This document shows positions 1,489 through 21,083 of a DNA stretch of 64,000 bases, in pieces. The DNA comes from Blautia sp. Lineage in GTDB: Bacteria; Bacillota; Clostridia; Lachnospirales; Lachnospiraceae. The stretch lies in contig JAPFCU010000037.1 in NCBI GenBank assembly GCA_026169535.1, positions 1 to 64,000 of the forward strand, given 5' to 3'. The notes beneath the pieces were generated by a model that searched no databases, was not told where the DNA came from, and saw only the letters and a program-made list of their open reading frames with translations. How positions within the stretch are numbered: position 1 is the stretch's first letter; each line of letters begins with the position of its first letter. Made by a program: the position numbers and the translations under genes.

Positions 1489-1503
1489 ATCCAACCTCGT
1501 TTC

Positions 1504-3921: not shown

Positions 3922-3934
3922 GTTTTACCTCATC

Positions 3935-6118
3935 CTACTTTTTCTTAATGCTTCTATATAATTTCCAGACCTTTGTATTTTCCATCTGGGTAATCTTTTC
4001 ATTCAGTCTGCGGATTTCCGCATCCTTTTCGGCAGATACTCTGGAAAAATTCTTCCAGAAATCTTCTCTTGCATCTGTTTCTTTCATGGTTCTGATCCGG
4101 ATGCGGAGCTTTGTCTTTCCGGAAACATCCCCGATTACAAACTGAGGGTCACCTCCGCCAAAGTAATATGCTCCCTCTCCCATGGGGAACCCGTTTGCAG
4201 TAAAATCTGCCGGCGTCCCATCCTCATAAGAAAGTTCCTTCAGAATCAGTCCTCCTGCCGCTTCTCCCGGATCCAGGCGCAGTCTGTGTACGCCTTCCGG
4301 AATCCTGATTTCCAGATCCAGTCCTTCCCTGCTCATAGGATAAACGACTGAATCCTCCTCATGGAAGCCTTCTCCCCGGTCAAAAAATACCTGAAGCCTT
4401 CTCTCCGCTCCTGCAAGCCGCATCTGCTCATAATATGGCAGAATCTCTACCTTACCCGGAGAAACCTCTTCATAAAGCTCCAGAAGGGGAACATGATTTC
4501 CTTTCATGTAGTTCTGGAAATTCCGTTCCATTTCCCCGTAAATCTCCATGTCTTTTTCCGTGATCCCGGCTTTTCCGTAAAAATCCCGGTTCTTCAGAAC
4601 GTGACGTTTGCCGTCGCTTTCCAGATAATAATGAATCATACGGTACTGGATGAAATCCGCAGGAATCGGAAAACGGAAGGTCCATTCATAATCAATGACT
4701 ACCTGTCTGTCTCTCTGAATCAGAAGGTTTGCCGGAACAAGATCAATATTGGACATGCCGGAGGCATCATATTCTCCCTCAAGAGGCGCGTCTCCAAATA
4801 CCCGGATAAACTCCGGTGTCTTTCTGAACTTTTCCTCGCTGTGAAGGCTGCGGATCTTTTTCAGATAAAAGAAAAACAAGTCTTCCAGTTCCTGATATTT
4901 TCCCTGTTCCAGAAGCATATCCAGTTTTTCCTCCAGAGTTACTCCCTCCAGATATTCCAGCTTTGCCGCCCCCTGCTCAAACCGGCAGTTATTCAGCTCA
5001 ATACCTTCTTTTTCATAAATTGTGTTCAGCTCTCTCTGGATCCGTTCCAGATTCTTTACATGCTCCTCTGCCTTTGGTACTACCGGAAGCTTCCGTACAT
5101 ATCTCTCATACCGTCCCGGCTCACAGATATCTGTCCGAAGGGCAAACTGCTGGTCTCTTTCATTGGAAAATTTAGAATAGACCACCTCCGGTCTGATCTC
5201 CTCTCTTCCGATCAGCAGAAGGAACGAGTTGGAAAATTCCGGAAACATATCGTTATCCAGAAGAGAGTCATATACCGAGGATTCCTGAAACAGCTGAAGC
5301 CTCAGTCTGTCGAAGTTTGTTTCCATCCGGTTCAGCTCTCCCTTCAGAGGAAGACGTCTGTCGGAATATATAGTCATGGGAAGCTTGTAATCCGGGAAAG
5401 GATAATACCAGCTTGCCTTGAGATTTCCCGCTTTTTCCAGAATATTCGTCAGTTCCTTTTTTGTAAAAGTCTTAACGCCTTTTGTGGAAGGATATCCTTC
5501 CAGTCCCTCAAATAAAGTGCCAAAATGATCCTCTGTGCAGCCTGCCCAGTATTTCAGTCCGAAACGATTTTCAATAGCAAGAATGATCTTTCCCTCCGGC
5601 TTCAGATGACGGGCAATAGTCCTGAGAAAATCCACATAAGGAGTTTCACTCTGAATATAATTTTCCCCATACTCAAAAACGCCGATCAGAGTAATGTAGT
5701 CATACTTCTCCGTCAGCGCAGGCTCGATCTCCTGGAAATTCCCCATGAGAATGGTCAGATTCTCACAGTCTCTGTGTCTCCAGGCATTGATCTCACTTCT
5801 TTTTTTTGAAAGCTCGATACAGGTGACCTTTTTTGCTTTTTTGCAAAGGGCGCCTGTAATCGCTCCACAGCCGGAACCAATCTCCAGCACACTTTCCTTT
5901 CCGGTAAAAGGAAGCCAGCTTAAAATGTTTTCTCTTACATGAGAGAAATGGTAAAGGATGGGCCAGCTTTTCCGCTCTGCGATTACCCGGTTCCATTCCT
6001 CCTCCGGATATGTTCTGGCAATCTGCAACATTTCATCCTCTACACTTCCGTCACTGTATAAATCCTGCCCTGGATAACAGGTATCATCCAGGGTCACCTG
6101 TCCGATCTTTTCTTTCAT
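3935..6118 (-). CDS. SAM-dependent methyltransferase with C-terminal kinase/APH-like region and short coiled coil (WbdD-like architecture)
   Basis: 727 aa; SAM motif VLEIGSGCGAITGAL near aa 77-91; kinase-like NIDLVPANLLIQ...VVIDYEWTF near aa 457-480; C-terminal EKDAEIRRLNEKITQMENTKVWKLYRSIKKK. Confidence 0.8.
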   Translation of the reverse strand: MKEKIGQVTLDDTCYPGQDLYSDGSVEDEMLQIARTYPEEEWNRVIAERKSWPILYHFSHVRENILSWLPFTGKESVLEIGSGCGAITGALCKKAKKVTCIELSKKRSEINAWRHRDCENLTILMGNFQEIEPALTEKYDYITLIGVFEYGENYIQSETPYVDFLRTIARHLKPEGKIILAIENRFGLKYWAGCTEDHFGTLFEGLEGYPSTKGVKTFTKKELTNILEKAGNLKASWYYPFPDYKLPMTIYSDRRLPLKGELNRMETNFDRLRLQLFQESSVYDSLLDNDMFPEFSNSFLLLIGREEIRPEVVYSKFSNERDQQFALRTDICEPGRYERYVRKLPVVPKAEEHVKNLERIQRELNTIYEKEGIELNNCRFEQGAAKLEYLEGVTLEEKLDMLLEQGKYQELEDLFFFYLKKIRSLHSEEKFRKTPEFIRVFGDAPLEGEYDASGMSNIDLVPANLLIQRDRQVVIDYEWTFRFPIPADFIQYRMIHYYLESDGKRHVLKNRDFYGKAGITEKDMEIYGEMERNFQNYMKGNHVPLLELYEEVSPGKVEILPYYEQMRLAGAERRLQVFFDRGEGFHEEDSVVYPMSREGLDLEIRIPEGVHRLRLDPGEAAGGLILKELSYEDGTPADFTANGFPMGEGAYYFGGGDPQFVIGDVSGKTKLRIRIRTMKETDAREDFWKNFSRVSAEKDAEIRRLNEKITQMENTKVWKLYRSIKKK

Positions 6119-7383
6119 ACTTTTTCTCCGTAGTGAATCTCTACTTTCGAGTTCATATCATAAAAACCAACGGTATTTTTATTGGAAACTACCGTAATGT
6201 TACATGCGTCATACAATCTGTGGAAAACGGTGAACTCCCCGTCCTTATACCCTGTACATCCAAAGGACAGAAGATATTCGCCTCCCTGAAGAAACATATC
6301 CTGCCGGAAGGTTACTGTGCAGGTATCGCCTGCTTCCGAATGCTCCACAGCCATTTTTTCAAAAAGAGTGTTGGTTCCTGTGATCTCTGTTCCTTTAATA
6401 TCCTTAAAGGTATAAGCCATGATAGGTTCCTGGATACTCTCATGAAAAACAACCTTCATTTTGATCTGGAAGGAACTTCCTTTTTCAATGGTATTTGTAC
6501 ACAGACCATTCTCATCCAGTACTGCAAAATCCACAATTTCTGCCAGCTTACTGCCATATTCCAGCATATTGGGGTTCACCTGGAACTGCTCGCTCCAATT
6601 CTCCTTCTGGGTTTCCTTATTTTCCTCTGCCTTTGCAGGATCCTGACCCACCAGAAGCTGTTTATACATATCCACCATCTGCTTTGGAGAGCCTTCCTCC
6701 ATTTTTACCCCTTTGTTAAGAAGAATAACCCTGTCGCAATAGCGGGAGATACTGCTGAGATCATGGCTGACAAAAAGAATGGTCCTGCCCATTTTTTTAA
6801 ATTCCTCGAATTTACGGTAACATTTGGCCTGGAAAAATACGTCGCCCACAGACAGAGCCTCATCTACGATCAGGATCTCCGGATCAATGTTGATGGCTAC
6901 CGCAAAAGCCAGACGGACAAACATGCCGCTGGAATATGCTTTTACCGGCTGGTAAACAAAATCTCCGATATCTGCAAAGTCCAGGATATCCTGAAGCCTT
7001 GCGTCTACCTCTTCTCTGGAAAATCCCATCATTGTTCCGTTGAGATAGATGTTTTCGATTCCGGTATATTCCATGTTAAAACCGGCTCCCAACTCCAGAA
7101 GGGCTGAAATCCTGCCGTTTACGGTCACCTCTCCGGCTGTAGGGTTCAGAACTCCGGTAATGATCTTTAAAATCGTAGATTTACCGGAACCATTGGTTCC
7201 GATAATTCCTACCGTCTCTCCCCTCTCCACCTGAAAGTTTACATCCCTGAGGGCATAATGTTCCCTTACAGGCACCTTAAGCCCCAGGGTTTCCCGGAGC
7301 CTGTCAGAAGGTTTGTTATATAGTTTATACATCTTATCCAGATGTTTTACCTGAATTGCAATTTCACTCATCTTACTCTCCAT
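6115..7383 (-). CDS. Polysaccharide ABC exporter ATP-binding protein, Wzt-like, with C-terminal domain
   Basis: 422 aa; Walker A GTNGSGKST, LIVDEALSVGD, plus ~160 aa C-terminal extension of Wzt_C type. Confidence 0.92.
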   Translation of the reverse strand: MESKMSEIAIQVKHLDKMYKLYNKPSDRLRETLGLKVPVREHYALRDVNFQVERGETVGIIGTNGSGKSTILKIITGVLNPTAGEVTVNGRISALLELGAGFNMEYTGIENIYLNGTMMGFSREEVDARLQDILDFADIGDFVYQPVKAYSSGMFVRLAFAVAINIDPEILIVDEALSVGDVFFQAKCYRKFEEFKKMGRTILFVSHDLSSISRYCDRVILLNKGVKMEEGSPKQMVDMYKQLLVGQDPAKAEENKETQKENWSEQFQVNPNMLEYGSKLAEIVDFAVLDENGLCTNTIEKGSSFQIKMKVVFHESIQEPIMAYTFKDIKGTEITGTNTLFEKMAVEHSEAGDTCTVTFRQDMFLQGGEYLLSFGCTGYKDGEFTVFHRLYDACNITVVSNKNTVGFYDMNSKVEIHYGEKV

Positions 7384-8235
7384 TTACATGACATCTGCAA
7401 AGTGTACCTGAAGCTTCTTAAACAGTCGTGTTCCCAGAACAAACAGCAAAATGGTAAATACCCAGAAGTACAGGGTCAGCCATGGATGCTGCCAGATTCC
7501 GATATGGTCGATCAGGGAATCGCGATATCCCTGTACCACATAGAACACAGGATTCAGTTTCAGGATTTTTGTCAGAATCCCTTCAAGACCAAGATCGCTG
7601 AAGTTCCACATGATGGGGGTCACCCACACACCTACCTGCAGACCGATGTTGATGATCTGACTGAGATCACGGAAAAATACCACCACTGCGCTGGAAAAAT
7701 AAGTCACTGCAAGAATCAGCATAAAAATACAGAAGCTGTAATAGATCAGCTGCAGCGCATACCAGGTAGGGGGATAGCCCATACAGGTGTAGATCACAAG
7801 TACGATCAGCACAAAAAAGCAGTGTACAAAAGCTGCTGAAATCACTTTTACCACCGGAAGGATCCGTATATTAAACACTACCTTTTTTACCAGATAATTG
7901 TATTCCAGAAGCGCGTTGGTACCGCCTACCAGTCCATCCTGAAAGAAAAACCAGGGAACCAGACCTGCCACCAGCCACAGCACAAAGGGTACTCCTCTGT
8001 CCGCTCCGCCTCTCAGGGCAAGTCCGAATACAAACCAGTACACACAGATAGTCACAATGGGCTGGATAAAAGCCCAGATGGTTCCGAAATAGGAACCTGC
8101 ATATTTTGTTTTAAAGTCGTTTTTTGCCAGGGAAAATACTAACCTTCTGTTCCGGTAAAGTTCCCCTGGCAGCCAGGTTTCTTTTTTCAATCCTTTTTGC
8201 TCCTGTTTGCGGAATATTCCTGAAAGCTTCCCCAC
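7384..8235 (-). CDS. Polysaccharide ABC exporter permease (Wzm/TagG-like)
   Basis: 283 aa membrane protein, LAKNDFKTKYAGSYFGTIWAFIQPIVTI, adjacent to Wzt-like ATPase. Confidence 0.92.
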   Translation of the reverse strand: MGKLSGIFRKQEQKGLKKETWLPGELYRNRRLVFSLAKNDFKTKYAGSYFGTIWAFIQPIVTICVYWFVFGLALRGGADRGVPFVLWLVAGLVPWFFFQDGLVGGTNALLEYNYLVKKVVFNIRILPVVKVISAAFVHCFFVLIVLVIYTCMGYPPTWYALQLIYYSFCIFMLILAVTYFSSAVVVFFRDLSQIINIGLQVGVWVTPIMWNFSDLGLEGILTKILKLNPVFYVVQGYRDSLIDHIGIWQHPWLTLYFWVFTILLFVLGTRLFKKLQVHFADVM

Positions 8236-8756
8236 TTCTGATCTTTTTCGGACATGATCAGTTCCATTCCCTCAGGAATCGGCCACTCCACTGCAATGTC
8301 CGGATCGTTGTATGCAAGACCGCCCTCATCATTCGGATGATAAAAATCTGTACATTTATAGGCAAATTCTGCGGAATCAGAAAGCACCAGAAAACCATGT
8401 GCAAAATTCTTCGGAATAAAGAACTGTTTTTTGTTCTCCGCAGAAAGCAGCACACCATACCACTGTCCATAGGTAGGAGATCCTTCTCTCAGGTCTACGG
8501 CAACATCAAACACCTCGCCGCTGACTACACGGACCAGTTTATCCTGCGGATAGTTGATCTGGAAATGAAGACCTCTTAAAACGCCTTTTCTGGAACTGGA
8601 CTGATTATCCTGCACAAACTCCTGATCAATTCCTGCCGCCTTATAATCATTATAATTATAAGTCTCCATAAAGTATCCGCGCTCGTCTCCGAACACTGCC
8701 GGCGTAATCACCTTCAGTCCTTCAATATGACAGGTTTCTACTGTGATTTTTCCCAT
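8187..8756 (-). CDS. rfbC: dTDP-4-dehydrorhamnose 3,5-epimerase family protein
   Basis: 189 aa; FGDERGYFMETYN, QDNQSSSRKGVLRGLHFQ, IPKNFAHGFLVLSD motifs. Confidence 0.93.
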   Translation of the reverse strand: MGKITVETCHIEGLKVITPAVFGDERGYFMETYNYNDYKAAGIDQEFVQDNQSSSRKGVLRGLHFQINYPQDKLVRVVSGEVFDVAVDLREGSPTYGQWYGVLLSAENKKQFFIPKNFAHGFLVLSDSAEFAYKCTDFYHPNDEGGLAYNDPDIAVEWPIPEGMELIMSEKDQKWGSFQEYSANRSKKD

Positions 8757-8757
8757 T

Positions 8758-9636
8758 TTATAAGCCCTCCGCTACTTCGATCATATATTTTCCATAAGCA
8801 GTTTTCAGAAGAGGCTGCGCCAGTTCCACAAGCTGCTCTTTTGTGATAAATCCACGTTTATATGCAATTTCCTCAATGCAGGAAATGTAAAGCCCCTGAC
8901 GCTTCTGGAATGCAGAAACAAAGTCAGCTGCATCAAGAAGAGAATCATGATTTCCGGTGTCAAGCCATGCAAAGCCTCTTCCCAGAGTTTCTACTTTGAG
9001 AGTACCTCTATTCAGATATTCGTTGTTAATGCTTGTGATCTCAATCTCCCCTCTTGCAGACGGTTTTACATTTTTGGCAATCTCCACTACATCATTATCA
9101 TAGAAATAAAGTCCCGGAACTGCATAATTAGACTTGGGATTCTCCGGCTTTTCTTCGATAGAAAGGGCCTTTCCGTTTTCGTCAAACTCTACTACTCCAT
9201 ACTCTCTCGGATCTCTTACATAATATCCAAAGATGGTAGCGCCTTTTTCTGTCTCTGTTCTCTGATATGCATTCTGGAGCACTCTGGAAAAACTCTGTCC
9301 ATAGAAAATGTTATCGCCCAGAACAAGAGCCACTGCATCGTTTCCAATAAATTCCTCTCCGATAATAAAAGCGTCTGCCAGCCCTCTCGGCTGCTCCTGC
9401 ACCGCATACTCAAATCTCATTCCCAGCTGTTTTCCGTCTCCAAGAAGTTCCTGAAATACAGGAAGATCTCTCGGTGTGGAAATGATCAGGATCTCACGGA
9501 TCCCTGCCAGCATCAATGTAGAAAGCGGATAGTAGATCATGGGCTTGTCATATACCGGCATGATCTGTTTGGAGATCGCCTTTGTTAATGGATATAATCT
9601 GGTTCCTGAACCGCCTGCTAAAATAATTCCCTTCAT
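8758..9636 (-). CDS. rfbA: Glucose-1-phosphate thymidylyltransferase
   Basis: 292 aa; [46 protein letters not shown]. Confidence 0.97.
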
Positions 9637-9648
9637 ATTTTCTTCTCC

Positions 9649-10932
9649 TTATCGTCTGGATCTGTACATTTTTTTCTCTTTGAAATGCAGTGCCACCATC
9701 AATATCACAAGTATCACTGCCATAACCGCCATTACCCCCAGAAGTATTTTGGAAGTATTGGATAAACCGCTTTCGCCTTCCGTGGACGCTTCAGCCGCTG
9801 CCTCACCGGCCGACTGTGCATTTCCTTCTGCAGATACAGTCTGTGTCACCTGCGGGGTAGGGGAAAATTTTGGAGTCATGAGATAGCCTACAAACTGACC
9901 GCTGTAATAAAACTGATTCATGATCTGTCCGTTTTTTTCTTTTGTTTTTACAGTAAGGTCATCCACAGTAACCCCTTTAGGTACTGTCATATTTTTTCCA
10001 TTTAAAGTTATTGTATCAAAATTATTAAATGCATAATCAAAAAGTGCAATCGTATCGGTACAGTTTGCTCCAAGATCCGGCGCCCGAAGCGTCACCGCTA
10101 TATACGTCCGTCCGTTTCTTTCTGCCGCAGTTACAAGCGTATGTCCGGCATCATTGGTATTTCCGGTCTTTCCGCCAATACATCCTTCATAATAAAGATT
10201 GGACTCCTTTGCCATTAAAGGCATATGAGTATGCATTCCTCTCGCTTCGCTGAGGTTTGTGGCCGGAATAGTATAATTGACTCCGCTGATCACCTGACGG
10301 AATCTGTGATTTCTAAGTCCTGCCCTCATGATCTTTGCCAAATCATGAGCGGTTGTATAGTGATTCGCATCCGGAAGACCGCTGGCATTGGCAAAATGTG
10401 TATTCTTACATCCAATCTCCTTTGCCCTCTGGTTCATCATCTCTATAAACTGGGCCTCTGTACCGCCTACATATTCTGCCATCTGGGCACAGACTTCATT
10501 GGCCGACTTAATGATAGCTGCAAACCAGCAGTCTTTCATGGTAATCGTCTCTCCCAGTTTCATCCCGATGTTTGAACTGTCCCAGGTTACATCTCTGACC
10601 CCGGTTTCTGTAAAAGTAACCGTATCTTTTGGTGAACTGTTTTCGATTGCCGTAAGCACAGTCATGATTTTTGTAGTACTGGCCGGATATCTGTATTCAT
10701 CCATTCCTTTATCATAAAGGACAGCTCCTGTGTCTGCGTCAATAAGCACAGCTGTCTCAGAAACTGTATCAGGACCTTTTGGCCAGCCCTGAATATTATC
10801 TGTAGCTACTGCTGCCGGTGTCCCAAAGTTTACAGTTACTGCCTGTACAGTGGATGCCGGCAGGATCAGGGATATCAGTCCCAGAACTGCAGCACCTGCA
10901 AATTTTTTTCTCATTCTTCTCTCCTCCGTCAA
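9649..10932 (-). CDS. D-alanyl-D-alanine carboxypeptidase (PBP5/DacA-like)
   Basis: 427 aa; signal peptide, PASTTKIMT (SxxK), KSANEVC (SxN), KTGNT (KTG), C-terminal TM helix. Start may be the Met at 10914. Confidence 0.93.
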   Translation of the reverse strand: MTEERRMRKKFAGAAVLGLISLILPASTVQAVTVNFGTPAAVATDNIQGWPKGPDTVSETAVLIDADTGAVLYDKGMDEYRYPASTTKIMTVLTAIENSSPKDTVTFTETGVRDVTWDSSNIGMKLGETITMKDCWFAAIIKSANEVCAQMAEYVGGTEAQFIEMMNQRAKEIGCKNTHFANASGLPDANHYTTAHDLAKIMRAGLRNHRFRQVISGVNYTIPATNLSEARGMHTHMPLMAKESNLYYEGCIGGKTGNTNDAGHTLVTAAERNGRTYIAVTLRAPDLGANCTDTIALFDYAFNNFDTITLNGKNMTVPKGVTVDDLTVKTKEKNGQIMNQFYYSGQFVGYLMTPKFSPTPQVTQTVSAEGNAQSAGEAAAEASTEGESGLSNTSKILLGVMAVMAVILVILMVALHFKEKKMYRSRR

Positions 10933-12056
10933 AACTCAAACGCAAGTATCTTTTCTGTAATATATTCTACATCAGACATAGACAGATTATAAAACATCGG
11001 AAGACGCAGAAGACGTTCACTTTCTTTTGTAGTGTAAACATCTTCGCCAGAAAATCTTCCAAATTTCTCTCCTGCCGGCGAGCTGTGCAGCGGTACATAG
11101 TGAAAGGCTGTGCAAATTCCGTTTTCCTTCAGGTAGGAGATCAGACGGCTCCTTGTTTCAAGGTCTTTTACTTTAATATAATACATATGAGCATTATGCT
11201 TGCATCCTTCCGGAACAACAGGTCTCTGGATCTTCTCCTGTTCCTCCAGACTCTTCAGGCCTTCATTATAATAATCATAGATCTGATGGCGCTTGCCATC
11301 GATCTTTTCTGCTTCCTCAAGCTGGGCATACAGATAAGCCGCATTCATTTCACTTGGAAGATAAGAGGATCCATAATCGATCCATCGGTATTTATCTACC
11401 TGTCCCCGGAAAAATTTACTTCTGTCCGTTCCTTTTTCTCTGAGGATCTCTGCTTTTTCCTGATATTCGTTGTTCTGGAATACCAGAGCACCTCCCTCTC
11501 CCATAGTATAATTTTTTGTCTCATGAAAACTGTAACATCCAAAATCGCCGATAGTTCCAAGAGCCTTTCCGTGGTAATAGGCTTCCACACCCTGGGCAGC
11601 ATCTTCAACTACTTTCAGATCATATTTTTTCGCCAGTTCCATGATCCGGTCCATTTCACAGGAAACACCTGCATAGTGAACCGGCACTATGGCTTTTGTT
11701 TTTTCTGTAACTGCCTGTTCGATCAGCTTTTCATCTATATTCATGGTATCCGGCCGGATGTCCACAAACACGATCTTTGCACCTCGAAGTACAAAAGCAT
11801 CTGCAGTAGATACAAATGTATAAGAAGGCATGATTACCTCATCTCCTGGCTGGATATCGCAAAGATACGCCGCCATCTCCAGTGCGTGTGTGCAGGAAGT
11901 GGTCAGAAACACCTGAGATGCCTGAAATCTTTCTTTCATCCACTGTGAGCAGAGTTTTGTATATTTACCGTCACCGCAGAGCATTCCCTGATCCACGGCA
12001 TCTTTAATATAATTCAGTTCTTTCCCTACAAGTGCAGGTCTGTTAAAATCTATCAT
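10929..12056 (-). CDS. wecE: dTDP-4-amino-4,6-dideoxygalactose transaminase (WecE/RffA-type, DegT/DnrJ/EryC1)
   Basis: 375 aa; IQPGDEVIMPSYTFVSTADAFVLRGAKIVFVDIRPDTMNIDE, YSFHETKNYTMGEGG, REKGTDRSKFFRGQVDKYRWIDYGSSYL closely match recalled E. coli RffA/WecE. Confidence 0.9.
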   Translation of the reverse strand: MIDFNRPALVGKELNYIKDAVDQGMLCGDGKYTKLCSQWMKERFQASQVFLTTSCTHALEMAAYLCDIQPGDEVIMPSYTFVSTADAFVLRGAKIVFVDIRPDTMNIDEKLIEQAVTEKTKAIVPVHYAGVSCEMDRIMELAKKYDLKVVEDAAQGVEAYYHGKALGTIGDFGCYSFHETKNYTMGEGGALVFQNNEYQEKAEILREKGTDRSKFFRGQVDKYRWIDYGSSYLPSEMNAAYLYAQLEEAEKIDGKRHQIYDYYNEGLKSLEEQEKIQRPVVPEGCKHNAHMYYIKVKDLETRSRLISYLKENGICTAFHYVPLHSSPAGEKFGRFSGEDVYTTKESERLLRLPMFYNLSMSDVEYITEKILAFEF

Positions 12057-13021
12057 TCTTTATTTCCCTGTTTTTCTTCATCCTTGTTGTCAGCTGCTTC
12101 AGAAATATTTTCTCTGTCCCGGATCACATACTGAGGTGTTTTGTTCACGTTCAGCATCAGCTTTCCCAGATATTCTCCCACAATACCAAGCATCAGGAAG
12201 CAAATGCCAAACAGTACCAGCATGGCACACATAAGAGAAGACCAGCCGATTGCTATAGAAGGATTCAGCAATTTACGGATAAATACTACTACTGCTCCAA
12301 TAAATCCGGCTGCCGAAAACAATGTTCCAAAAAAAGTTGCAAGCCGGAGAGGAATCACCGTAAAATTCAGACAGGACATAAAAAGCTTCAGCCCTCTCCT
12401 GAAATTATAATTGGAAGTCCCTACCTCTCTTTCAAAATGCTCGATCTCTATATTTGCAATATTGTGTGTGGTACGGAAAAACAGTACCTGAAGAAAGGTA
12501 TTGTACCCGTCATATTTTACAACCTCATCCCTGACATACTTCCGGCAGCACCAGAAACTGCTCATCTGGATATCCTTCGGACGATCCAGAAGATGCCACA
12601 AAAGGAAGCGGCTTACTGCTCCTGTCAGATTTTTAAACCAGGAAAATTTCCTTTGTTTAAAGACTCCAAACACAATGTCATAGCCTTCTTCCATCTTATC
12701 CAAAAACTGCGGAATCTGAGAAGGATGGTTCTGCATATCATCATCCATTCCCAGGATCAGATCTCCCTCTGCATAATTCATTCCTGCCATAATAGCATTA
12801 TGCTGGCCAAAATTTTTTGCAAGGTTGATTCCTTTTACATTCGGGTATTTCTCTGTCAGTCCATGTATGGACTTCCAGGTACCATCTCTGGAATAGTCGT
12901 TTACAAGCACAAACTCACATTCATAATCTTTTAATTTCTCGAACTCTTCTATTGCAAGCTCCACCACCTTGCCGATGGTGTGCTCCGAATTATAGCACGG
13001 TATGACAATCGATACCAGCAT
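12053..13021 (-). CDS. GT2 glycosyltransferase with C-terminal TM helices (ArnC/DPM1-like polyprenyl-phosphate glycosyltransferase)
   Basis: MLVSIVIPCYNSEHTIGKVVELA, ILGMDDDMQNHPSQIP; two C-terminal hydrophobic helices. Start placed at ATG 13021 after GAGGGAGAAAAG. Confidence 0.9.
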   Translation of the reverse strand: MLVSIVIPCYNSEHTIGKVVELAIEEFEKLKDYECEFVLVNDYSRDGTWKSIHGLTEKYPNVKGINLAKNFGQHNAIMAGMNYAEGDLILGMDDDMQNHPSQIPQFLDKMEEGYDIVFGVFKQRKFSWFKNLTGAVSRFLLWHLLDRPKDIQMSSFWCCRKYVRDEVVKYDGYNTFLQVLFFRTTHNIANIEIEHFEREVGTSNYNFRRGLKLFMSCLNFTVIPLRLATFFGTLFSAAGFIGAVVVFIRKLLNPSIAIGWSSLMCAMLVLFGICFLMLGIVGEYLGKLMLNVNKTPQYVIRDRENISEAADNKDEEKQGNKE

Positions 13022-13037
13022 CTTTTCTCCCTCGTTT

Positions 13038-13382
13038 CTATAGGTTAAATATAAAAATCCCTGCAAGGATCAGGGCAAATCCCATAAGTTTCCTTTTGCT
13101 GAATGTTTCTTTCAAAAAGAAATATCCCATCACCGAGACAAAAATATATCCTGTAGATTCCAGAATCGGTGACATAGAAAGCGGCAGATTCCGCAGCGCC
13201 AGCATAGTAAGGATCACAGAGCAGAAAAAAAGGCCGTAGGCTCCGATCACCATAGGATTCAGATATTCCTTCAGCGGGCTGTCATATATTTTATTTGCTG
13301 CTTTTTTGAGGATGATCTGAGAAACAGATGAGATAAATACCGATAAAAGCAGGATACATACAGATATCTGAAAACTGCTCAA
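13038..13382 (-). CDS. Small EamA/SMR-like 4-TM protein (ArnE/ArnF-like subunit)
   Basis: 114 aa, four hydrophobic segments, PILESTGYIFVSVMGYFFLKETFSKRKLMGFALILAGIFIF. Confidence 0.85.
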   Translation of the reverse strand: MSSFQISVCILLLSVFISSVSQIILKKAANKIYDSPLKEYLNPMVIGAYGLFFCSVILTMLALRNLPLSMSPILESTGYIFVSVMGYFFLKETFSKRKLMGFALILAGIFIFNL

Positions 13383-13762
13383 TGTTTCTCACCGCCCTTC
13401 TGCAAATTTTCTGATGTTACCAGATAGATCCCGGCAAAAATAATCACTGCTCCGACGATCATATTCCAGGTAATCTTTTCCTCAAAGATCAGAGCACCCC
13501 AAATAATGCCCCAGATCAGTGTCACAGGGCGGTTGGCATACGCCACCGTCAAGGGCATGCGCTTCAGGATCTGCTGCCAGATCACTGCATATCCGAACAT
13601 GATCACAAATACCAGCCCGAACCAGAAAATAAACTGCAGTGAAAAAATACGGTCGGTATATCCGGAAGCCATTTTAGAACAGACACCACTTAATGAGCTG
13701 AACAAAAGGCTGATATGAAGCAGCAGATATGTACTTTTTTTTGAGTCATGGTCATTTCTCAT
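13379..13762 (-). CDS. Small EamA/SMR-like 4-TM protein, partner of the adjacent gene
   Basis: 127 aa, four hydrophobic segments, IWGALIFEEKITWNMIVGAVIIFAGIYLV; 4-nt overlap with next gene. Confidence 0.85.
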   Translation of the reverse strand: MRNDHDSKKSTYLLLHISLLFSSLSGVCSKMASGYTDRIFSLQFIFWFGLVFVIMFGYAVIWQQILKRMPLTVAYANRPVTLIWGIIWGALIFEEKITWNMIVGAVIIFAGIYLVTSENLQKGGEKH

Positions 13763-13777
13763 GTTATTCTCTCACAA

Positions 13778-14965
13778 TCATACTGTAAATTCAATGTTAA
13801 TTTTCGACAAAATATCCTCCAGACGCTTTTCACATGCATCCAGATTTTCCCCTGTCAGGATCACCTGACCAATACGGTCTCTTCCATTTTCGTAACGGTT
13901 CACCTGATCTCCCGGCTGAATATTAAAAGAAAGATCAATAATATCCTCTGCCGGACTATTTGTATTATGGATTTCTTTTACAATACCGCTTCTGTCCGAA
14001 GTCAATATCCTGGAAAGACTGGACTGCTGCGATTTATGGCCGGCAAATAATTTCTCCGGCTCCATGTCCATGGCAAGCCGCACGATTGCCTCGTAATAAT
14101 TGATTCCGTAATATAAGCCTACTGTTTCTGGCAGGCAGGTTGCTCCCGCCCTTCCCGTAATCTCGATCACATAGATATTTCCATCTTTTTCGATCAGATC
14201 ACAGTTAACGGCACAATTATCAAGCCCTACTGCCTGAATGGCAAGCATTACCTGCTCTTCCACCCTGGCTCCCAATGTCTTCTGTTTTCTGTAAGGAACA
14301 GAATGCCCTATGGGCGTTGGTACATAGCTCTGAAAAGCGTCGATATTGTTGGGAAGGCAGTAAAGAAGCTTTCCATTGGAGATCATAGCTTCACAGCCAA
14401 GAGTTTCGCCCTCAATAAATTCCTCTGCCAGACAGTAATCTTTTCCAGTAGCCTTCATTGTATCTTCATATCGCTCAAATGCTTCTTCTTTTGTATTGCA
14501 CCGGAAGATCCCTCTGCTTCCCATCAGATCCACCGCCTTAAGGACCACAGGAAATTCCAGGCATTCCAGGGCCTCTGCAAGTTCCTGTCTGTTTCGGATG
14601 CAGATATGACGGGCGCAGTTTACCCCGCCTGCCATAAACGCTTCTTTCATTTTAAATTTATTACTGCTGATGTCTGCGGCTTTCGCACTGAGCCCTTTTA
14701 GCCCCAGATGTTCACAGGCATAACCCAGAGCTCTTACTCCGGTATCCAGGCAGCAGGTAGCGATCCCATCCACATGAAATCTTCTTGCCACTTCATATAC
14801 GGCAGCAGGATCTGATATATCTGTATAAGTAAATTCATCTGCTGCCTGAAATCCCGGCCAATCTCCCGGAATACTGGCAGCAACTGTAGAAATGCCAAGT
14901 TTTCCTGCCTCCTCATAAAGAGGCAGCTGAGAATAACTGGCGCCAAGAATCATTATTTTTTTCAT
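13778..14965 (-). CDS. ATP-grasp domain protein (carboxylate-amine ligase type)
   Basis: 395 aa; FPVVLKAVDLMGSRGIFRC, CLAEEFIEGETLGCEAM, NCDLIEKDGNIYVIEITGRAGATCLPE. Confidence 0.88.
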   Translation of the reverse strand: MKKIMILGASYSQLPLYEEAGKLGISTVAASIPGDWPGFQAADEFTYTDISDPAAVYEVARRFHVDGIATCCLDTGVRALGYACEHLGLKGLSAKAADISSNKFKMKEAFMAGGVNCARHICIRNRQELAEALECLEFPVVLKAVDLMGSRGIFRCNTKEEAFERYEDTMKATGKDYCLAEEFIEGETLGCEAMISNGKLLYCLPNNIDAFQSYVPTPIGHSVPYRKQKTLGARVEEQVMLAIQAVGLDNCAVNCDLIEKDGNIYVIEITGRAGATCLPETVGLYYGINYYEAIVRLAMDMEPEKLFAGHKSQQSSLSRILTSDRSGIVKEIHNTNSPAEDIIDLSFNIQPGDQVNRYENGRDRIGQVILTGENLDACEKRLEDILSKINIEFTV

Positions 14966-14967
14966 AA

Positions 14968-17136
14968 TTAAAGATCATTCTCCTCCAGGAAATCAAAAAA
15001 TAAAGGGGTTCCTCCCGTATGGAGAAACAGAATATTCTTATCATGGATCTGGTGTTCTTCCAGATATCTTACCATACCATAAAATGCCTTTCCTGTATAG
15101 GTCATATCAAGAGGTATTCCTTCTTCCCCGTATATTTTTCTGATAATATCCGCTGTTTTAGATGAATATCGTCCGTATCCGTCTCCCAGATATTCGTCCG
15201 TAAAATAAATATGCTCTTTCCAATCTTCCGGAAAGCTATAGCCAAACTTATCTGCATATGCATTAAGATCAGAGGCAATGACCTCTTTTCCCCTTTTTGC
15301 ATTTCGAGAAACAGAGATACCTATGATTTTCCTGTTGTCTCCTGCTTTCAGGCTTCCGGCAAGCAGGCCGGCCTGAGTGGCATTGGTGCTGGATGCCAGA
15401 AAAATATAGTCAAAATGAACTCCTTTTTCTTCTTCCTGGCGGCATATCTCCTCATATGCCTCTGCATAAGCCTCCACAGGAACCCATTCCCGTCCCTGAC
15501 CTTTTTTATTTCCATAAATATAATAAGGTCTGTATCCTTTTTCTGTCAGTTCATCCATAGCCTGCTGTACCGCATGCGCAATCCCTGTTTTTCCGCAGGG
15601 GATTTCCCTTACTCCCATAGCCCGGATCACCCGGCTGTTCTGTGTTTCTTTTTGTTCTTTTATATCTTCTGTATTATGAACCATATAGCAGGGCATTCCC
15701 AGCTTATGGCAAAGAGTTGACAGTATCCGGCAAAGATTAGAATGATAATTTCCATAAATGATCATACTGTCACAATATTCTCTTTTCATATCTTCCAGAA
15801 ATTTCTGAGCAAAGCGAACCTTGTTTCCTCCAAAGGAAAACGGCAGCAGATCGTCTCTCTTCATATAAAAATGATTGCAGGGGATATGTGCTGATGATAT
15901 CTGCCAGCCCGGAATCTCCGGTGCCTTCCAGCTGATTTCTCCTCCGGAAAATCCCAGCTTCTGTACAGGTGTTTCCGGAAGCCCTTCAAGAGGATTTTCC
16001 CATGGACCATGATGAAGCAGTTCTTCCATTTCTTTATGGGAGGCTGCCTGCAGGATAAAAAATCCCGGCCTGCTTCCACTGTCCACAATATCTGCCTTTT
16101 TTGCCTCTCCCTCTATTACCACTTTTCGCAGCTTATCCGGGTGTTTTTCCTGCAGTTCCGCAAGCAGTTTCTCATCATTTTCATTCATAAGAAAACGAAT
16201 GGCAGCCACATGTCTGTCCGCTTCTTTTAATACAGGTGGTTTTCCTGATGCTGTATCTACTACCATTCCCACAAAATCCTGGCCTGTAGAAAGAGGAACA
16301 AGATCTGAACCAATGCAGTCTCCGCCCATACGGGAACCGATCTCAATGATACGGATTTCTCCTTTTTTGCTGATCCGCAGTTCACTATGAGCAGCTCCAC
16401 AGACAATCCCCAACGCATCCAGTGCTCTGAAAACAAGTTTTTTCACTCGGTTTTCCATTTCCTCTGTTAAAGGAGCCGGCTGTATATGAGCCACTTCTAT
16501 ATAATTAGGACTTCCTGTTGTATATTTTTTGGTGACGGCAAGACAGGTGTGACAGCCATTATAGCTTATAGTCTCGACGCTGTACTCTGCCCCCTCTATA
16601 TATTCCTCTATGATCGCCTTTTTTTCAAAAGACTGCGATACGGCATTCATAACAGCATCTGCCAGATCTTCTTCTTTATATACTTTGGTAATTGCCCTAC
16701 TTCCAGAACGGTCTGTAGGCTTCACAATCACAGGATATGACTGTGGACTGTACTTTTCGCCCGCTTCTACTGTTTTAAAAAAGGGTACCGGAATACCGGC
16801 TTCCTGAAAAGCAAGACGCATAGACGCTTTATTGGTTGAATTCCGGATACACTCCCTGCTGTTCCCAGGAAGTCCTAATTCCTCTGCCAGATACTGAACT
16901 GTAATATTTGCCAGATCCGATCCTATGGTTGCCACTGCATCCGGCTGTATCTTTCTGCATATATCCAGAATCTGATCTTTTTCCGTAATACTGATCTCAT
17001 AAAAGAAATCTGCATCCTCTGCACCTGCAGCGCCTTCCCGCCAGGCAAACACATGGGTCTCATATCCCATTTCTTTTGCTTTTTGTATCAAAGGTTTCTG
17101 AAAATCATTGGCTCCAATGATCACGATCTTTTTCAT
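14968..17136 (-). CDS. Fusion: N-terminal ATP-grasp ligase + C-terminal PLP-dependent ACC deaminase/D-cysteine desulfhydrase-like domain
   Basis: 722 aa; ATP-grasp YPVIVKPTDRSGSRAITKV, AIIEEYIEGAEYSVET, IRIIEIGSRMGGDCIG; PLP half FYMKRDDLLPFSFGGNKVRF, IIYGNYHSNLCR, NILFLHTGGTPLFF. Confidence 0.88.
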   Translation of the reverse strand: MKKIVIIGANDFQKPLIQKAKEMGYETHVFAWREGAAGAEDADFFYEISITEKDQILDICRKIQPDAVATIGSDLANITVQYLAEELGLPGNSRECIRNSTNKASMRLAFQEAGIPVPFFKTVEAGEKYSPQSYPVIVKPTDRSGSRAITKVYKEEDLADAVMNAVSQSFEKKAIIEEYIEGAEYSVETISYNGCHTCLAVTKKYTTGSPNYIEVAHIQPAPLTEEMENRVKKLVFRALDALGIVCGAAHSELRISKKGEIRIIEIGSRMGGDCIGSDLVPLSTGQDFVGMVVDTASGKPPVLKEADRHVAAIRFLMNENDEKLLAELQEKHPDKLRKVVIEGEAKKADIVDSGSRPGFFILQAASHKEMEELLHHGPWENPLEGLPETPVQKLGFSGGEISWKAPEIPGWQISSAHIPCNHFYMKRDDLLPFSFGGNKVRFAQKFLEDMKREYCDSMIIYGNYHSNLCRILSTLCHKLGMPCYMVHNTEDIKEQKETQNSRVIRAMGVREIPCGKTGIAHAVQQAMDELTEKGYRPYYIYGNKKGQGREWVPVEAYAEAYEEICRQEEEKGVHFDYIFLASSTNATQAGLLAGSLKAGDNRKIIGISVSRNAKRGKEVIASDLNAYADKFGYSFPEDWKEHIYFTDEYLGDGYGRYSSKTADIIRKIYGEEGIPLDMTYTGKAFYGMVRYLEEHQIHDKNILFLHTGGTPLFFDFLEENDL

Positions 17137-17371: not shown

Positions 17372-18454
17372 TTATTTTGTTTTGTACATATCTTCGTAAT
17401 ATTTCTGGTAATCTCCACTGGTCACATTTTTCATCCAGTCCTCATTTTCAAAGAACCATTTAATGGTCAGACGGATACCGTCTTCAAAACAGGTTTCCGG
17501 ATACCAGCCTACTTCTTCTTTGATCTTATCCGGAGCAATGGCATAACGACGGTCATGACCCTTACGGTCTTCTACATAGGTGATCAGATTTTCACTGACA
17601 AGTTCTCTTCTTGGATCTCCTTCCGGAAGCATCTCCTGAAGAGTATCCAAAATAATATGGATAATCTGGATATTCTGCTTTTCATTATGTCCGCCGATAT
17701 TATAGGTTTCAAAAAGACGTCCTTTTTCCTGAACCATATCAATGCCTTTTGCATGATCCATAACATACAGCCAGTCACGGACATTTTTACCATCACCATA
17801 TACCGGAAGCTTCTTACCCTGAAGGGCATTATTGATGATAAGCGGAATCAGTTTTTCCGGGAACTGGTATGGTCCATAGTTGTTGCTGCAGTTTGTAATA
17901 TTCGCCGGGAATTTATAAGTATCCATATAAGATTTCACCAGCATATCTGAAGATGCCTTACTTGCTGAATAAGGGCTGTGTGGATCATAGGGAGTGGTTT
18001 CATAGAAAAATCCACCCTCATCCTCAAGAGAACCGTACACCTCATCTGTAGAAACATGAAGGAATTTTTTGTCCGGTTTAAAAGTTCCGTCCGGAAGCTC
18101 CCATGCAGATTTTGCTGCATTAAGCATAACCAGAGTTCCCAGTACATTTGTCTTTACAAACACTTCCGGATTACGGATACTTCTGTCTACGTGACTTTCC
18201 GCCGCAAAATGAACAACACGGTCAATATCATTTTCATCGAAAATCTTCATAATTGCTTCGCTGTCACAGATATCCGCTTTTACAAAGGTATAGTTCTCCC
18301 TGTTTTCAACATCTTTCAGATTTTCCAAATTTCCTGCATAAGTCAGCTTGTCCACATTGATAATGCGGATCTCATTGTCATATTTCTGAAACATGTAGTG
18401 GATATAGTTGGATCCAATAAATCCTGCTCCGCCTGTTACCAGATATGTTCTCAT
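17372..18454 (-). CDS. rfbB: dTDP-glucose 4,6-dehydratase
   Basis: MRTYLVTGGAGFIGSNYIHYM, DRSIRNPEVFVKTNVLGT, YSASKASSDM; start at second Met chosen for SD CAGGAGG. Confidence 0.96.
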   Translation of the reverse strand: MRTYLVTGGAGFIGSNYIHYMFQKYDNEIRIINVDKLTYAGNLENLKDVENRENYTFVKADICDSEAIMKIFDENDIDRVVHFAAESHVDRSIRNPEVFVKTNVLGTLVMLNAAKSAWELPDGTFKPDKKFLHVSTDEVYGSLEDEGGFFYETTPYDPHSPYSASKASSDMLVKSYMDTYKFPANITNCSNNYGPYQFPEKLIPLIINNALQGKKLPVYGDGKNVRDWLYVMDHAKGIDMVQEKGRLFETYNIGGHNEKQNIQIIHIILDTLQEMLPEGDPRRELVSENLITYVEDRKGHDRRYAIAPDKIKEEVGWYPETCFEDGIRLTIKWFFENEDWMKNVTSGDYQKYYEDMYKTK

Positions 18455-18554
18455 ATTATTTTCCTCCTGAGAAGAGGCTGTCACTTCTCCTGCAGCCTTA
18501 GATCGATATTAAGTGTCTCTCTTCGGAACAGTTTTGCAACAGCCTCCTTTTTAA

Positions 18555-21083
18555 TTAGTTATATTCCGGGTCCGTAGGATCGAAAGTTCCGCTTCCTCTC
18601 AATGGTGTCAGCGGATTCCTTCCAAGAGGTCCCTTAAAGGTTTCATTGGCATTGTACTTTCCGTCAAAAATCCTGATTCTGGATCCATTGCAGTTTTCCC
18701 AGATCCATTTTGCATCTGCCACACAGCAGCGGATACATCCGTGGGAAGCCGGATTGCCAAGCTTCAGATATTCTCCCGCCGGAAGATTGTTTCCATGTCT
18801 CTGACCACTTGCTACAGAATGGATATAAATACCGCCTCTTACATGAGTTCCATACTGACCCCAGGACGGTCCCATGAGAAGCTGCCAGCGGTCTGCACGA
18901 TCAATTCGTTCATTTGTCATCAGCGGTGTAGGAGTCCATGGATTACCTACAGAAACACGGATAGTCTTAATGGGCACATTTTTCTTGGAATTTGTATAAA
19001 TGGTCATAACACCATTGACACGGTCACATTCCAGATAATAAGAGCTCTGTCTGAACTCATTGGTTCTGTCGCTGACACGATTTCCATATTTGTCAAAACG
19101 ATAATTTACTCCGTCAATGATCTTGGTAGTGTTCTTTAACACATATCCTGTACTTGGATCCATATAGCGGGCACGGTTCTTTGCATCATCCATGATGATC
19201 CACTCTGTAGAATATCTTCCACGGGAATCCAGCCATCCCCATTTATTTGTAGACGGATCTTTTACTCTTTTATTAGTTACTGCTGTACAGTTCTGGAAAT
19301 AATATCTTCCGCCTTTGATGTTTCTCCATCCATCAGAAGCCAGAACGCCGTTGCTTGCCGCATAATAATATTTGTTATTATACTTGATCCAGGTTCCTTT
19401 ATATCTGTTTCCACGATATTTTGTAGTAGAAGAACGTTCGAAGAAATAATAATACTTGCCTACTTTTGTAACACCGCTTGCCATACGTCCGTCAGGAAGG
19501 AAATATCTGTCCTTGGACCAGTAGTTCTGAACATTATTGCCACCGGAAGTAAAAAGGAACCATCCAACAAATTTACCGTTAACAGTAACTTTCTGAATAC
19601 CTTTCTTTTCCTGCACACGTCCTGCAACACTTCCAAAGTAATAATACCTATTGTTGGTATTTGCTCCCAGACGTACCCAGCGGTTTTTCCAGGTTGCACG
19701 CTTTCCGCTGCTGGTAAAGTAGTATCTGTAGCCTTTGATCTTGATCAGGCGATCTGTATATACCTGACCAAATTTATTGGTATAGTAGTAATAACCATCG
19801 GCTCCTTTTGTCATTTTACTCTGAACAAGATATCCATTGGCATCTGCAAAGTAAAGTGCGTCTTTGTTGTTAAAGATCTTATATGCCCCTGCCGGCATTT
19901 TTTTATAACGGCCATTATCTCCAAAGTAACGGTACTGTGTTTTCTTATTCAGGTCACGGCCTACCCAGAAATCACTCTTCATCTGACCAAAGTCAGAGTT
20001 ATAAGGAGTCAGATTCTTTCCAGCTGCTGTATCCGGATTGGAAACACTGGTCTTATAAGACTCCATGAAATAGTATTCTCCATCACTGTTCTCAGTGTAT
20101 CCGGCTGTTCCTTTTCGCATCAGAAATCTTCCGGTTACCATGTTTCCGTTTCCATCAAAGTAATAAATACCTTTTGCGAGCTGATTTCCCTTGCTGTCTA
20201 CGGTTGTAACCTCTACCATGGTCTTTCTGTAATACTCTACCGCAGCTCCGGCGGTTTCAGCCGGCGTTTCCTCTGTCTGAGTCTCTGTCTCCGGTATTAT
20301 CTCAGGTACAGCTTCCGGATCTGCCGGTATCGTTTCCGGTACAACTGCTGCTTCATCTGAAAAATCTGCAGTGCCTTCATCTGCAGTTTCTTCCGGCATA
20401 ACTTCCACGGTTTTTGGAACCGCTGTATCCAGAACAACTTCCTCTCCCTGCATCTCTGGTTCTGTCATTTCTGCATCTGCTTCCGGCTGCTGCACATTGC
20501 CTGCATCCGGAACTGTATTTTCCTGTACTGTTTTTCCTTTTGGAAGTTTACTCAGTTTCCATGCTTTACCAAATTGTTTCCAGCGGGTATACAGAAGCGT
20601 GGCCTTATGCGTCTTTTCATCTGCTGATTCAAAAGAAGCTGCGGCGGCTTCGGTATTTTCTTCTTCCAGGACCGGATCCTGCTGTTCTGTTTCAGTCATA
20701 TTATCTCCTGAACTGAACAGACCATCAGAAAACTCCTCTTCCGGATAATCCATTTCCTCCTGAGGAGCCTGCATATCCGGAATCTCTCCTGTGTTATTAT
20801 CTGTAATCTCACCATCTGCATTGTCTGAAGTTCCATCCCCCGGTACTTCTCCTGCATTGGGATCTTCAATCGTTATACTTCCTCCATCGGATCCTTCAGG
20901 CTCTTCTGTCTGTACCTCACTGTTCCCATTCTGTTCTTCTGCATTATCAGATACTTCGTCTGAAAACACAGCATCAGATACTACTGCTGCAGAAGGGTCT
21001 GCTATTGCTGCTGCTCCGGTTTCTGCAACCATTGCTGAACACATTGTCAGGCTTAACAAAACTGCCACTACTCGTTTTTTCAA
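18555..21083 (-). CDS. Secreted L,D-transpeptidase (YkuD) with acidic low-complexity region and cell-wall-binding-type repeats
   Basis: 842 aa; signal peptide, long E/P/T-rich region, repeated YYYF/G-x-W units, catalytic HGNNLPAGEYLKLGNPASHGCIRC. Confidence 0.93.
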   Translation of the reverse strand: MKKRVVAVLLSLTMCSAMVAETGAAAIADPSAAVVSDAVFSDEVSDNAEEQNGNSEVQTEEPEGSDGGSITIEDPNAGEVPGDGTSDNADGEITDNNTGEIPDMQAPQEEMDYPEEEFSDGLFSSGDNMTETEQQDPVLEEENTEAAAASFESADEKTHKATLLYTRWKQFGKAWKLSKLPKGKTVQENTVPDAGNVQQPEADAEMTEPEMQGEEVVLDTAVPKTVEVMPEETADEGTADFSDEAAVVPETIPADPEAVPEIIPETETQTEETPAETAGAAVEYYRKTMVEVTTVDSKGNQLAKGIYYFDGNGNMVTGRFLMRKGTAGYTENSDGEYYFMESYKTSVSNPDTAAGKNLTPYNSDFGQMKSDFWVGRDLNKKTQYRYFGDNGRYKKMPAGAYKIFNNKDALYFADANGYLVQSKMTKGADGYYYYTNKFGQVYTDRLIKIKGYRYYFTSSGKRATWKNRWVRLGANTNNRYYYFGSVAGRVQEKKGIQKVTVNGKFVGWFLFTSGGNNVQNYWSKDRYFLPDGRMASGVTKVGKYYYFFERSSTTKYRGNRYKGTWIKYNNKYYYAASNGVLASDGWRNIKGGRYYFQNCTAVTNKRVKDPSTNKWGWLDSRGRYSTEWIIMDDAKNRARYMDPSTGYVLKNTTKIIDGVNYRFDKYGNRVSDRTNEFRQSSYYLECDRVNGVMTIYTNSKKNVPIKTIRVSVGNPWTPTPLMTNERIDRADRWQLLMGPSWGQYGTHVRGGIYIHSVASGQRHGNNLPAGEYLKLGNPASHGCIRCCVADAKWIWENCNGSRIRIFDGKYNANETFKGPLGRNPLTPLRGSGTFDPTDPEYN

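Follow-up and report, generated by a model that had tools for sequence, protein, structure and literature searches.

We have identified, in an operon of a Blautia species, a single gene that encodes an ATP-grasp ligase joined in frame to a fold-type II PLP domain, and the coupling of this PLP enzyme to ATP-grasp ligases is both real and conserved. The gene lies in the window, by which we mean the whole stretch of 64,000 nucleotides that was analysed (contig JAPFCU010000037.1). The operon genes (Table 1) point to an undecaprenyl-phosphate-linked, amino-acylated 4-amino-4,6-dideoxy sugar, and the likeliest role of the PLP half is to make the amino acid used or to racemise it. In the reading that we favour, with a probability of roughly 0.55, the operon would make a dTDP-4-amino sugar, the ligases would aminoacylate it with an amino acid prepared by the PLP half, and the product would decorate a cell-wall glycopolymer.

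Table 1. Genes of the operon, the two halves of the fusion and flanking features, with positions in the window
Feature	Positions	Strand	Evidence
L,D-transpeptidase (YkuD) protein with repeat region	18555..21083		
rmlB, dTDP-glucose 4,6-dehydratase	17372..18484	-	TIGR01181, 483 bits (cut-off 365)
Fusion gene, ATP-grasp ligase + fold-type II PLP domain, 722 aa	14968..17136	-	complete frame, Pfam, AlphaFold, L055-L059
Ligase half (ATPg1 family), aa 1-378	16003..17136	-	phmmer 3vot, Foldseek, ligase tree
PLP half, aa ~388-722	14968..15975	-	alignment with dcyD and acdS, Foldseek 4d8t
ATPg2, second, separate ATP-grasp ligase with LAL_C2 domain	13778..14965	-	best solved relative 4dim, E 1e-104
EamA small membrane protein 1 (ArnE/ArnF-like)	13379..13762	-	EamA; weak ArnE/F matches below cut-off
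EamA small membrane protein 2 (ArnE/ArnF-like)	13038..13382	-	EamA; weak ArnE/F matches below cut-off
GT2 polyprenyl-phosphate glycosyltransferase (ArnC/PgfS-like)	12053..13066	-	ArnC and PgfS models, both 166 bits, below cut-off
WecE-type dTDP-4-keto-6-deoxy sugar 4-aminotransferase	10929..12056	-	634.6 bits (cut-off 375); TIGR02379, 621.6 bits (cut-off 434.85)
D-Ala-D-Ala carboxypeptidase	9649..10932		
rmlA, glucose-1-phosphate thymidylyltransferase	8758..9636	-	TIGR01207, 492.9 bits (cut-off 360.65)
Polysaccharide export cluster	1..8756		

The fusion is encoded on the minus strand (17136 to 14968) in a frame without an internal stop, while the plus strand at 14968-17136 is full of stops and holds no frame. 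Profile searches, which the initial annotation of this DNA had proposed as a check, matched Pfam ATP-grasp_4 in the ligase half (aa 133-275, E 2e-24, 86.4 bits against a cut-off of 27) and PALP in the PLP half (aa 415-708, E 9e-27, 94.6 bits against a cut-off of 35). Free-standing ligase homologues, which are open frames of about 370-440 aa, align to fusion residues 1 to ~377, and free-standing PLP homologues start at the 'TPIQKL' stretch, at aa ~388 of the fusion, so that the protein consists of two whole enzymes with a short linker. The annotation had thus correctly described one uninterrupted 722-codon frame joining two enzymes, and the motifs that it quoted are all present (SFGGNKVRF at 434-442, YHSNLCR at 464-470 and LHTGGTP at 705-711). 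Its two-domain layout stands, with the boundary moved from about aa 400 to about aa 378-388 by the ends of the free-standing homologues. Structure prediction, also proposed there, agreed: an AlphaFold model built from 15 fusion proteins gave two well-folded halves (mean pLDDT 80.5) and a loose linker at 400-419, at a pTM of 0.53 from which the mutual orientation of the halves is not readable. With TM scores normalised to the target, Foldseek related the ligase half to the L-amino-acid ligase 3vot (0.79) and the PLP half to Salmonella D-cysteine desulfhydrase 4d8t (0.81); those PDB chains among the best 50 that spanned both halves were large ATP-grasp carboxylases or synthetases with rmsd >20.

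We scanned 85,488 species genomes with the PLP half, and the counts below refer to the best 80 named loci of a longer list. The same fusion is found in five named genomes, namely a Lachnospiraceae MAG, Blautia caecimuris DSM 29492, Blautia SUG17, Blautia schinkii MSK.6.26 and a Clostridia MAG (L055-L059), as well as in genome G237; B. caecimuris (L056) and B. schinkii are cultured isolates. The junction is therefore not an assembly join, and the case that would have overturned the annotation, in which relatives always encode two proteins and the junction is an artefact, did not hold. In nine further loci of the best 80 (L060-L068) the same PLP domain is carried on a different, non-orthologous ATP-grasp ligase, which the ligase tree shows to be orthologous to the separate ATPg2 of the window operon. 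The count of fusion architectures that had been suggested thus gives 14 of the best 80 loci fused, with two non-orthologous partners.

In the PLP tree, a single clade (100/99.5) takes in every ATP-grasp-linked member tested and leaves out dcyD, acdS and the six ordinary family members; the fused PLP domains together make up a subclade (96/96). In the ligase tree, the two fusion partners fall in separate clades, each with free-standing members (100/100 each), the ligase half of our fusion lying inside a clade of free-standing ligases. Ligase partners in two clades mean that at least two junctions exist, and the idea of a single fusion event was set aside on this ground; the junctions may reflect either two fusions or a move of the PLP domain. 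An AU test gave p 0.48 for one clade of ATPg1 fusions. At locus L036 (genome G179, 5850-10128), ATPg1, ATPg2, the EamA pair and the GT2 gene stand together without a PLP domain; the ATPg1 of this locus is sister to the fused ones, and the arrangement may be the state before fusion or after loss.

The tie to ATP-grasp genes extends well beyond the fusions. In 76 of the 80 best loci the PLP relative is fused or adjacent to an ATP-grasp gene, adjacent meaning within 2.5 kb on the same strand; besides the fused loci there are 62 such neighbours, 50 of them PylC-like and 12 ATPg2, so that the ATP-grasp partners of the PLP clade belong to three families (ATPg1, ATPg2 and PylC-like). Of the remaining four, three lack an ATP-grasp gene in the stretch examined, and the other has one at a distance of 5.8 kb. 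No ATP-grasp neighbour was seen at any of six conventional DcyD-family genes of Lachnospiraceae (1.5 kb flanks), nor at dcyD of Salmonella or acdS of Pantoea. When neighbours of the best 80 loci were clustered, PylC-like ATP-grasp genes and sugar 4-aminotransferases were each found at 48 loci, PglC-like phosphosugar transferases at 34, polyprenyl-phosphate GT2 genes at 30 and ArnE/F-like EamA genes at 12-13; most fused loci have an ArnC-like glycosyltransferase, the EamA pair and WecE nearby.

In the window the genes follow one another on the minus strand in the order rmlB, fusion, ATPg2, two EamA genes, the ArnC/PgfS-like GT2, WecE, DD-carboxypeptidase, rmlA and rmlC. There is a gap of 235 bp between rmlB and the fusion, ATPg2 starts 2 bp past the fusion stop codon, and several of the frames have 4-bp overlaps. 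RmlA, RmlB and the WecE-type aminotransferase all score above curated cut-offs, and together they would produce a dTDP-4-amino-4,6-dideoxy hexose. The PLP half would first act on a free alpha-amino acid, giving the form used by a ligase of the operon. The ligase half may form the acyl phosphate of an amino acid (or of an aminoacyl group) and join it to an amine, and the ATP-grasp ligases would couple one or more amino acids to the 4-amino group of the sugar. The ArnC-like GT2 would load the product on undecaprenyl phosphate, the EamA pair would flip the loaded carrier, and the sugar would then decorate a cell-wall glycopolymer. What the analysis shows directly is the fusion with its two distinct kinds of partner, the conserved catalytic residues, the operon and the recurrent pairing; which sugar is the acceptor, how the steps follow one another, which amino acid is used and what the PLP half catalyses are parts of the pathway that we infer.

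Downstream of the operon lies a polysaccharide export cluster with a Wzm/Wzt-type ABC exporter, rmlC, a large protein with a methyltransferase domain and multi-domain GT2 enzymes. These export genes and glycosyltransferases suggest that the polymer being decorated is probably a polysaccharide of the wall or for export, with rhamnose among its sugars. The operon is also flanked by genes for a YkuD-type L,D-transpeptidase protein and a D-Ala-D-Ala carboxypeptidase, which hold the same place in the Blautia relatives (L055-L057).

Among solved structures, the ligase half is nearest to an L-amino-acid ligase (LAL), and it is a candidate for an ATP-dependent enzyme that joins amino acids. The best phmmer match is 3vot (E 4e-28), and Lys103, Lys139, Glu177, Glu265 and Arg269 are invariant in the 15 fusions; the fold, the ATP-binding Lys and the metal-binding Glu place it among the ATP-grasp ligases. 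It shares the ATP-grasp core of BL00235 (3vot), BacD/YwfE and RizA, its EIGSRMGG corresponding to EVGARIGG in 3vot. However, those enzymes are free-standing dipeptide or antibiotic ligases, whereas this one is joined to a PLP enzyme and stands among amino-sugar genes.

Which ligase the PLP half serves is a separate question. Among 250 Lachnospiraceae genomes, whose kinship makes the Fisher p values only indicative, the PLP subfamily occurs in 13, ATPg2 in 21 and ATPg1 in 20. The PLP subfamily occurs together with ATPg2 in 9 of its 13 genomes (p 2e-8) and with ATPg1 in only 3 (p 0.07), so the amino acid that it makes need not be the one used by its own ligase half. In 17 of the 20 genomes with ATPg1 the PLP subfamily is lacking, which counts against our main explanation in that the ATPg1 family does not need the PLP domain; ATPg1 also stands beside WecE without a PLP domain (e.g. 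L038, L039, L046 and L047). A refinement of the main reading is therefore that the PLP product feeds ATPg2, to which the PLP domain is itself fused in nine loci, that the ATPg1 fusion is a mere matter of gene order and that the two ligases add different groups. We give this a good chance, though one somewhat short of even, since the ATPg1 fusion has been kept across Blautia and beyond, which suggests a benefit of the covalent link. It seems likeliest that the two ligases add two groups, with the PLP-derived group added by ATPg2 or by either. The annotation had proposed that the PLP half supplies, racemises or edits the amino acid of its ligase; supply or racemisation fits best, and the supply idea holds in its general form, though the partner may be another ligase.

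The catalytic residues of the PLP half are kept. Residues Lys51, Ser78, Asn79, Tyr261, Tyr287, Thr288 and Thr315 of DcyD correspond to Lys439, Ser466, Asn467, Tyr654, Tyr680, Thr681 and Thr707 of the fusion. The Lys, Ser, Asn, both Tyr and Thr315 positions are conserved in all 48 of the clade members examined, and Thr288 in 42; the PLP lysine, Lys439, places the half in the fold-type II PALP family. In DcyD, Tyr287 abstracts the C-alpha proton, and Ser78 and Asn79 hold the substrate carboxylate (PMC3344862). The kept Ser-Asn carboxylate site suggests that the substrate would be a free amino acid, and this would place the PLP step before ligation. A possible reaction is racemisation between the L and D forms, carried out between Lys439 and Tyr680; another is beta-elimination or beta-replacement on a serine-like substrate. 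Although DcyD is not described as a racemase, its crystals show the C-alpha proton of D-Ser directed to Tyr287 and that of L-Ser to Lys51 (PMC3344862). The two bases would thus lie on opposite sides, and a two-base racemase with Lys439 and Tyr680 is, by analogy, geometrically possible. The protein could be a bifunctional racemase-ligase or synthase-ligase, the PLP half making a non-standard (e.g. D-) amino acid which the ligases put on the undecaprenyl-linked 4-amino-4,6-dideoxy sugar. We put this forward tentatively; if true, it would represent an undescribed class of pathway for amino-acylated cell-surface sugars, spanning Lachnospiraceae and, with unfused genes, other Bacillota and an E. 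coli plasmid.

The annotation had seen altered chemistry in the replacement, by Leu, of a His in a QSNH-type loop that it took as usual. That loop is usual for DcyD, but ACC deaminase has QSNQ, so the position after SN is variable anyway; in the clade it is Leu in 39, His in 7 and Phe in 2 of 48 members, with the catalytic residues kept. The change is clade-wide as well as variable; it gives no support for altered chemistry and is rejected as the key one. The PLP half shares with DcyD (4d8t), ACC deaminase (1rqx), CuyA and XcbE the fold, the PLP lysine, the Ser-Asn carboxylate site, both tyrosines and the terminal HTGG loop, but differs from them in its separate clade, its tie to ATP-grasp genes and scores far below curated cut-offs. 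The D-cysteate sulfo-lyase CuyA model gave 158.3 bits and XcbE 147.2 (450 needed for each), and the D-cysteine desulfhydrase models gave 139.9 against 289.4 (TIGR01275) and 116.3 against 429 (PRK03910.1-3). Compared with DcyD it has Leu for His80, Phe for Lys54, Asp for Ala323 and His for Gln77.

The last of these bears on function. In DcyD, Gln77 and Ser78 determine D-Cys specificity. Ser466 is kept, but in 13 of the 15 fused proteins a His (His465 in ours) stands where DcyD has Gln77; the Q77H change abolishes the D-Cys activity of DcyD, and a Pyrococcus homologue with His at this position uses D- and L-Ser (PMC3344862). With the low model scores, this disfavours D-cysteine desulfhydrase as the function. 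It also argues against the proposal that the PLP half works after ligation or alongside it, as an editing or detoxifying desulfhydrase which deaminates or beta-eliminates wrong or surplus amino acids and so protects the ligase rather than feeding it. This proposal draws on the fact that the nearest characterised enzymes, DcyD and CuyA, are degradative lyases and that the residues for alpha,beta-elimination are kept; the tie to biosynthetic sugar operons and ligases at nearly all of the best loci does not look catabolic, and we consider editing unlikely. ACC deaminase is disfavoured as well, on residues and scores (TIGR01274, 123.9 bits against 392): acdS has Glu at 288 and Leu at 315, where Thr681 and Thr707 are found here, so this activity is not expected.

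Bacterial polysaccharides are known to contain amides between amino acids and hexuronic acids, and 14 of the best 80 loci have, within six genes and mostly at +3, a gene that resembles a nucleotide-sugar dehydrogenase as judged by its N-terminal sequence only. That the ligases link an amino-acid amine to the carboxyl of a uronic-acid sugar, and not an amino-acid carboxyl to an amino sugar, is nonetheless quite improbable, as no such dehydrogenase was noticed among the operon neighbours in the window, where WecE, RmlA and RmlB are found instead, and as sugar aminotransferases are the commoner neighbour.

Fusions of MurF with alanine racemase in Bacteroidetes are a precedent for joining a ligase to an amino-acid-modifying enzyme. 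A fusion of ATP-grasp with argininosuccinate lyase (PRK02186) is another, matched here in its ATP-grasp part only; both have other folds and other partners, and their PLP or lyase parts are not homologous to ours. As a whole, the operon resembles the Arn pathway (ArnB, ArnC, ArnE, ArnF), which leads to undecaprenyl-phosphate 4-amino-4-deoxy-L-arabinose, in having a nucleotide 4-amino sugar, an ArnC-like GT2 acting on polyprenyl phosphate and an EamA pair. It differs in its dTDP-hexose made via WecE, its two ligases, its PLP domain and its Gram-positive host. No ArnA, ArnD or ArnT was seen among the operon neighbours, and the glycosyltransferase and EamA proteins stay below Arn cut-offs (ArnC 166 bits against 529, ArnE at most 36.2 against 92, ArnF at most 30.9 against 99). 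The operon is also similar to the CsbB-GtcA-YfhO system, in which a cytoplasmic C55-P-sugar glycosyltransferase, a small membrane flippase and a YfhO-type extracellular glycosyltransferase act together (PMC7389260); here the EamA pair replaces GtcA, and amino-sugar and amino-acid genes are added. A YfhO-type transferase is the usual last step of three-component glycosylation (PMC7389260), and genes of this type are present both close to relatives of the operon and at other places in the source genome.

Every part of the system belongs to a known family, and the whole is a variation on amino-sugar decoration pathways. Polysaccharide chemistry has revealed amino-acid substituents on amino sugars, but most of the enzymes involved are unassigned; the PLP-ligase pair, recurring as neighbours and in two fusions, supplies candidates that can be tested, both for the ligase and for the source of the amino acid. 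In the open-access literature searched we found no description of the fusion or of the PLP-ligase pair, and no biochemical paper on the pair; nor does that literature appear to describe the PLP clade or the way in which it is tied to amino-sugar ligation. Dozens of bacteria share the pairing, which suggests a route for surface-sugar decoration with a purpose-prepared amino acid and is relevant to surface chemistry in common gut bacteria such as Blautia. Such genes are probably mislabelled where they are annotated as 'ACC deaminase' or 'D-cysteine desulfhydrase'.

A second copy of the PLP half and ATPg2 is present on another contig of the same assembly (C52 of G000; L002, 1-2027). Its DNA is 97.6% identical to that of Blautia caecimuris and 78% identical to that of the window's nearest relative, which rules out a genomic duplication; C52 is probably a contaminant contig of the metagenome assembly.

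In 12 of the best 80 loci, mostly of capsule type, the gene immediately upstream of the PLP gene encodes a PseH-like GNAT acetyltransferase (L092, L095, L099, L103, L104, L106, L108, L113, L123, L125, L126 and L132). This enzyme may acetylate the sugar amine or the amino-acyl group; it could be the sugar-amine acylator in those loci, and this counts against our main explanation. E. coli O114, whose O-antigen contains N-acetyl-L-seryl-Qui3N, was followed as a lead and set aside, as neither an ATP-grasp gene nor a PLP lyase gene is named in the published account (PMC2905691). An E. coli IncR plasmid (L148, NZ_LR890610.1, 1965-10839) carries, beside insertion sequences, an O-antigen-like cluster of rmlB, rmlA, a VioA-like aminotransferase, a GNAT, a PLP gene (33% identical) and a PylC-like ATP-grasp gene. 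The trio of aminotransferase, PLP and ATP-grasp genes is thus found there too, in favour of our main explanation, and the cluster is present in four E. coli genomes.
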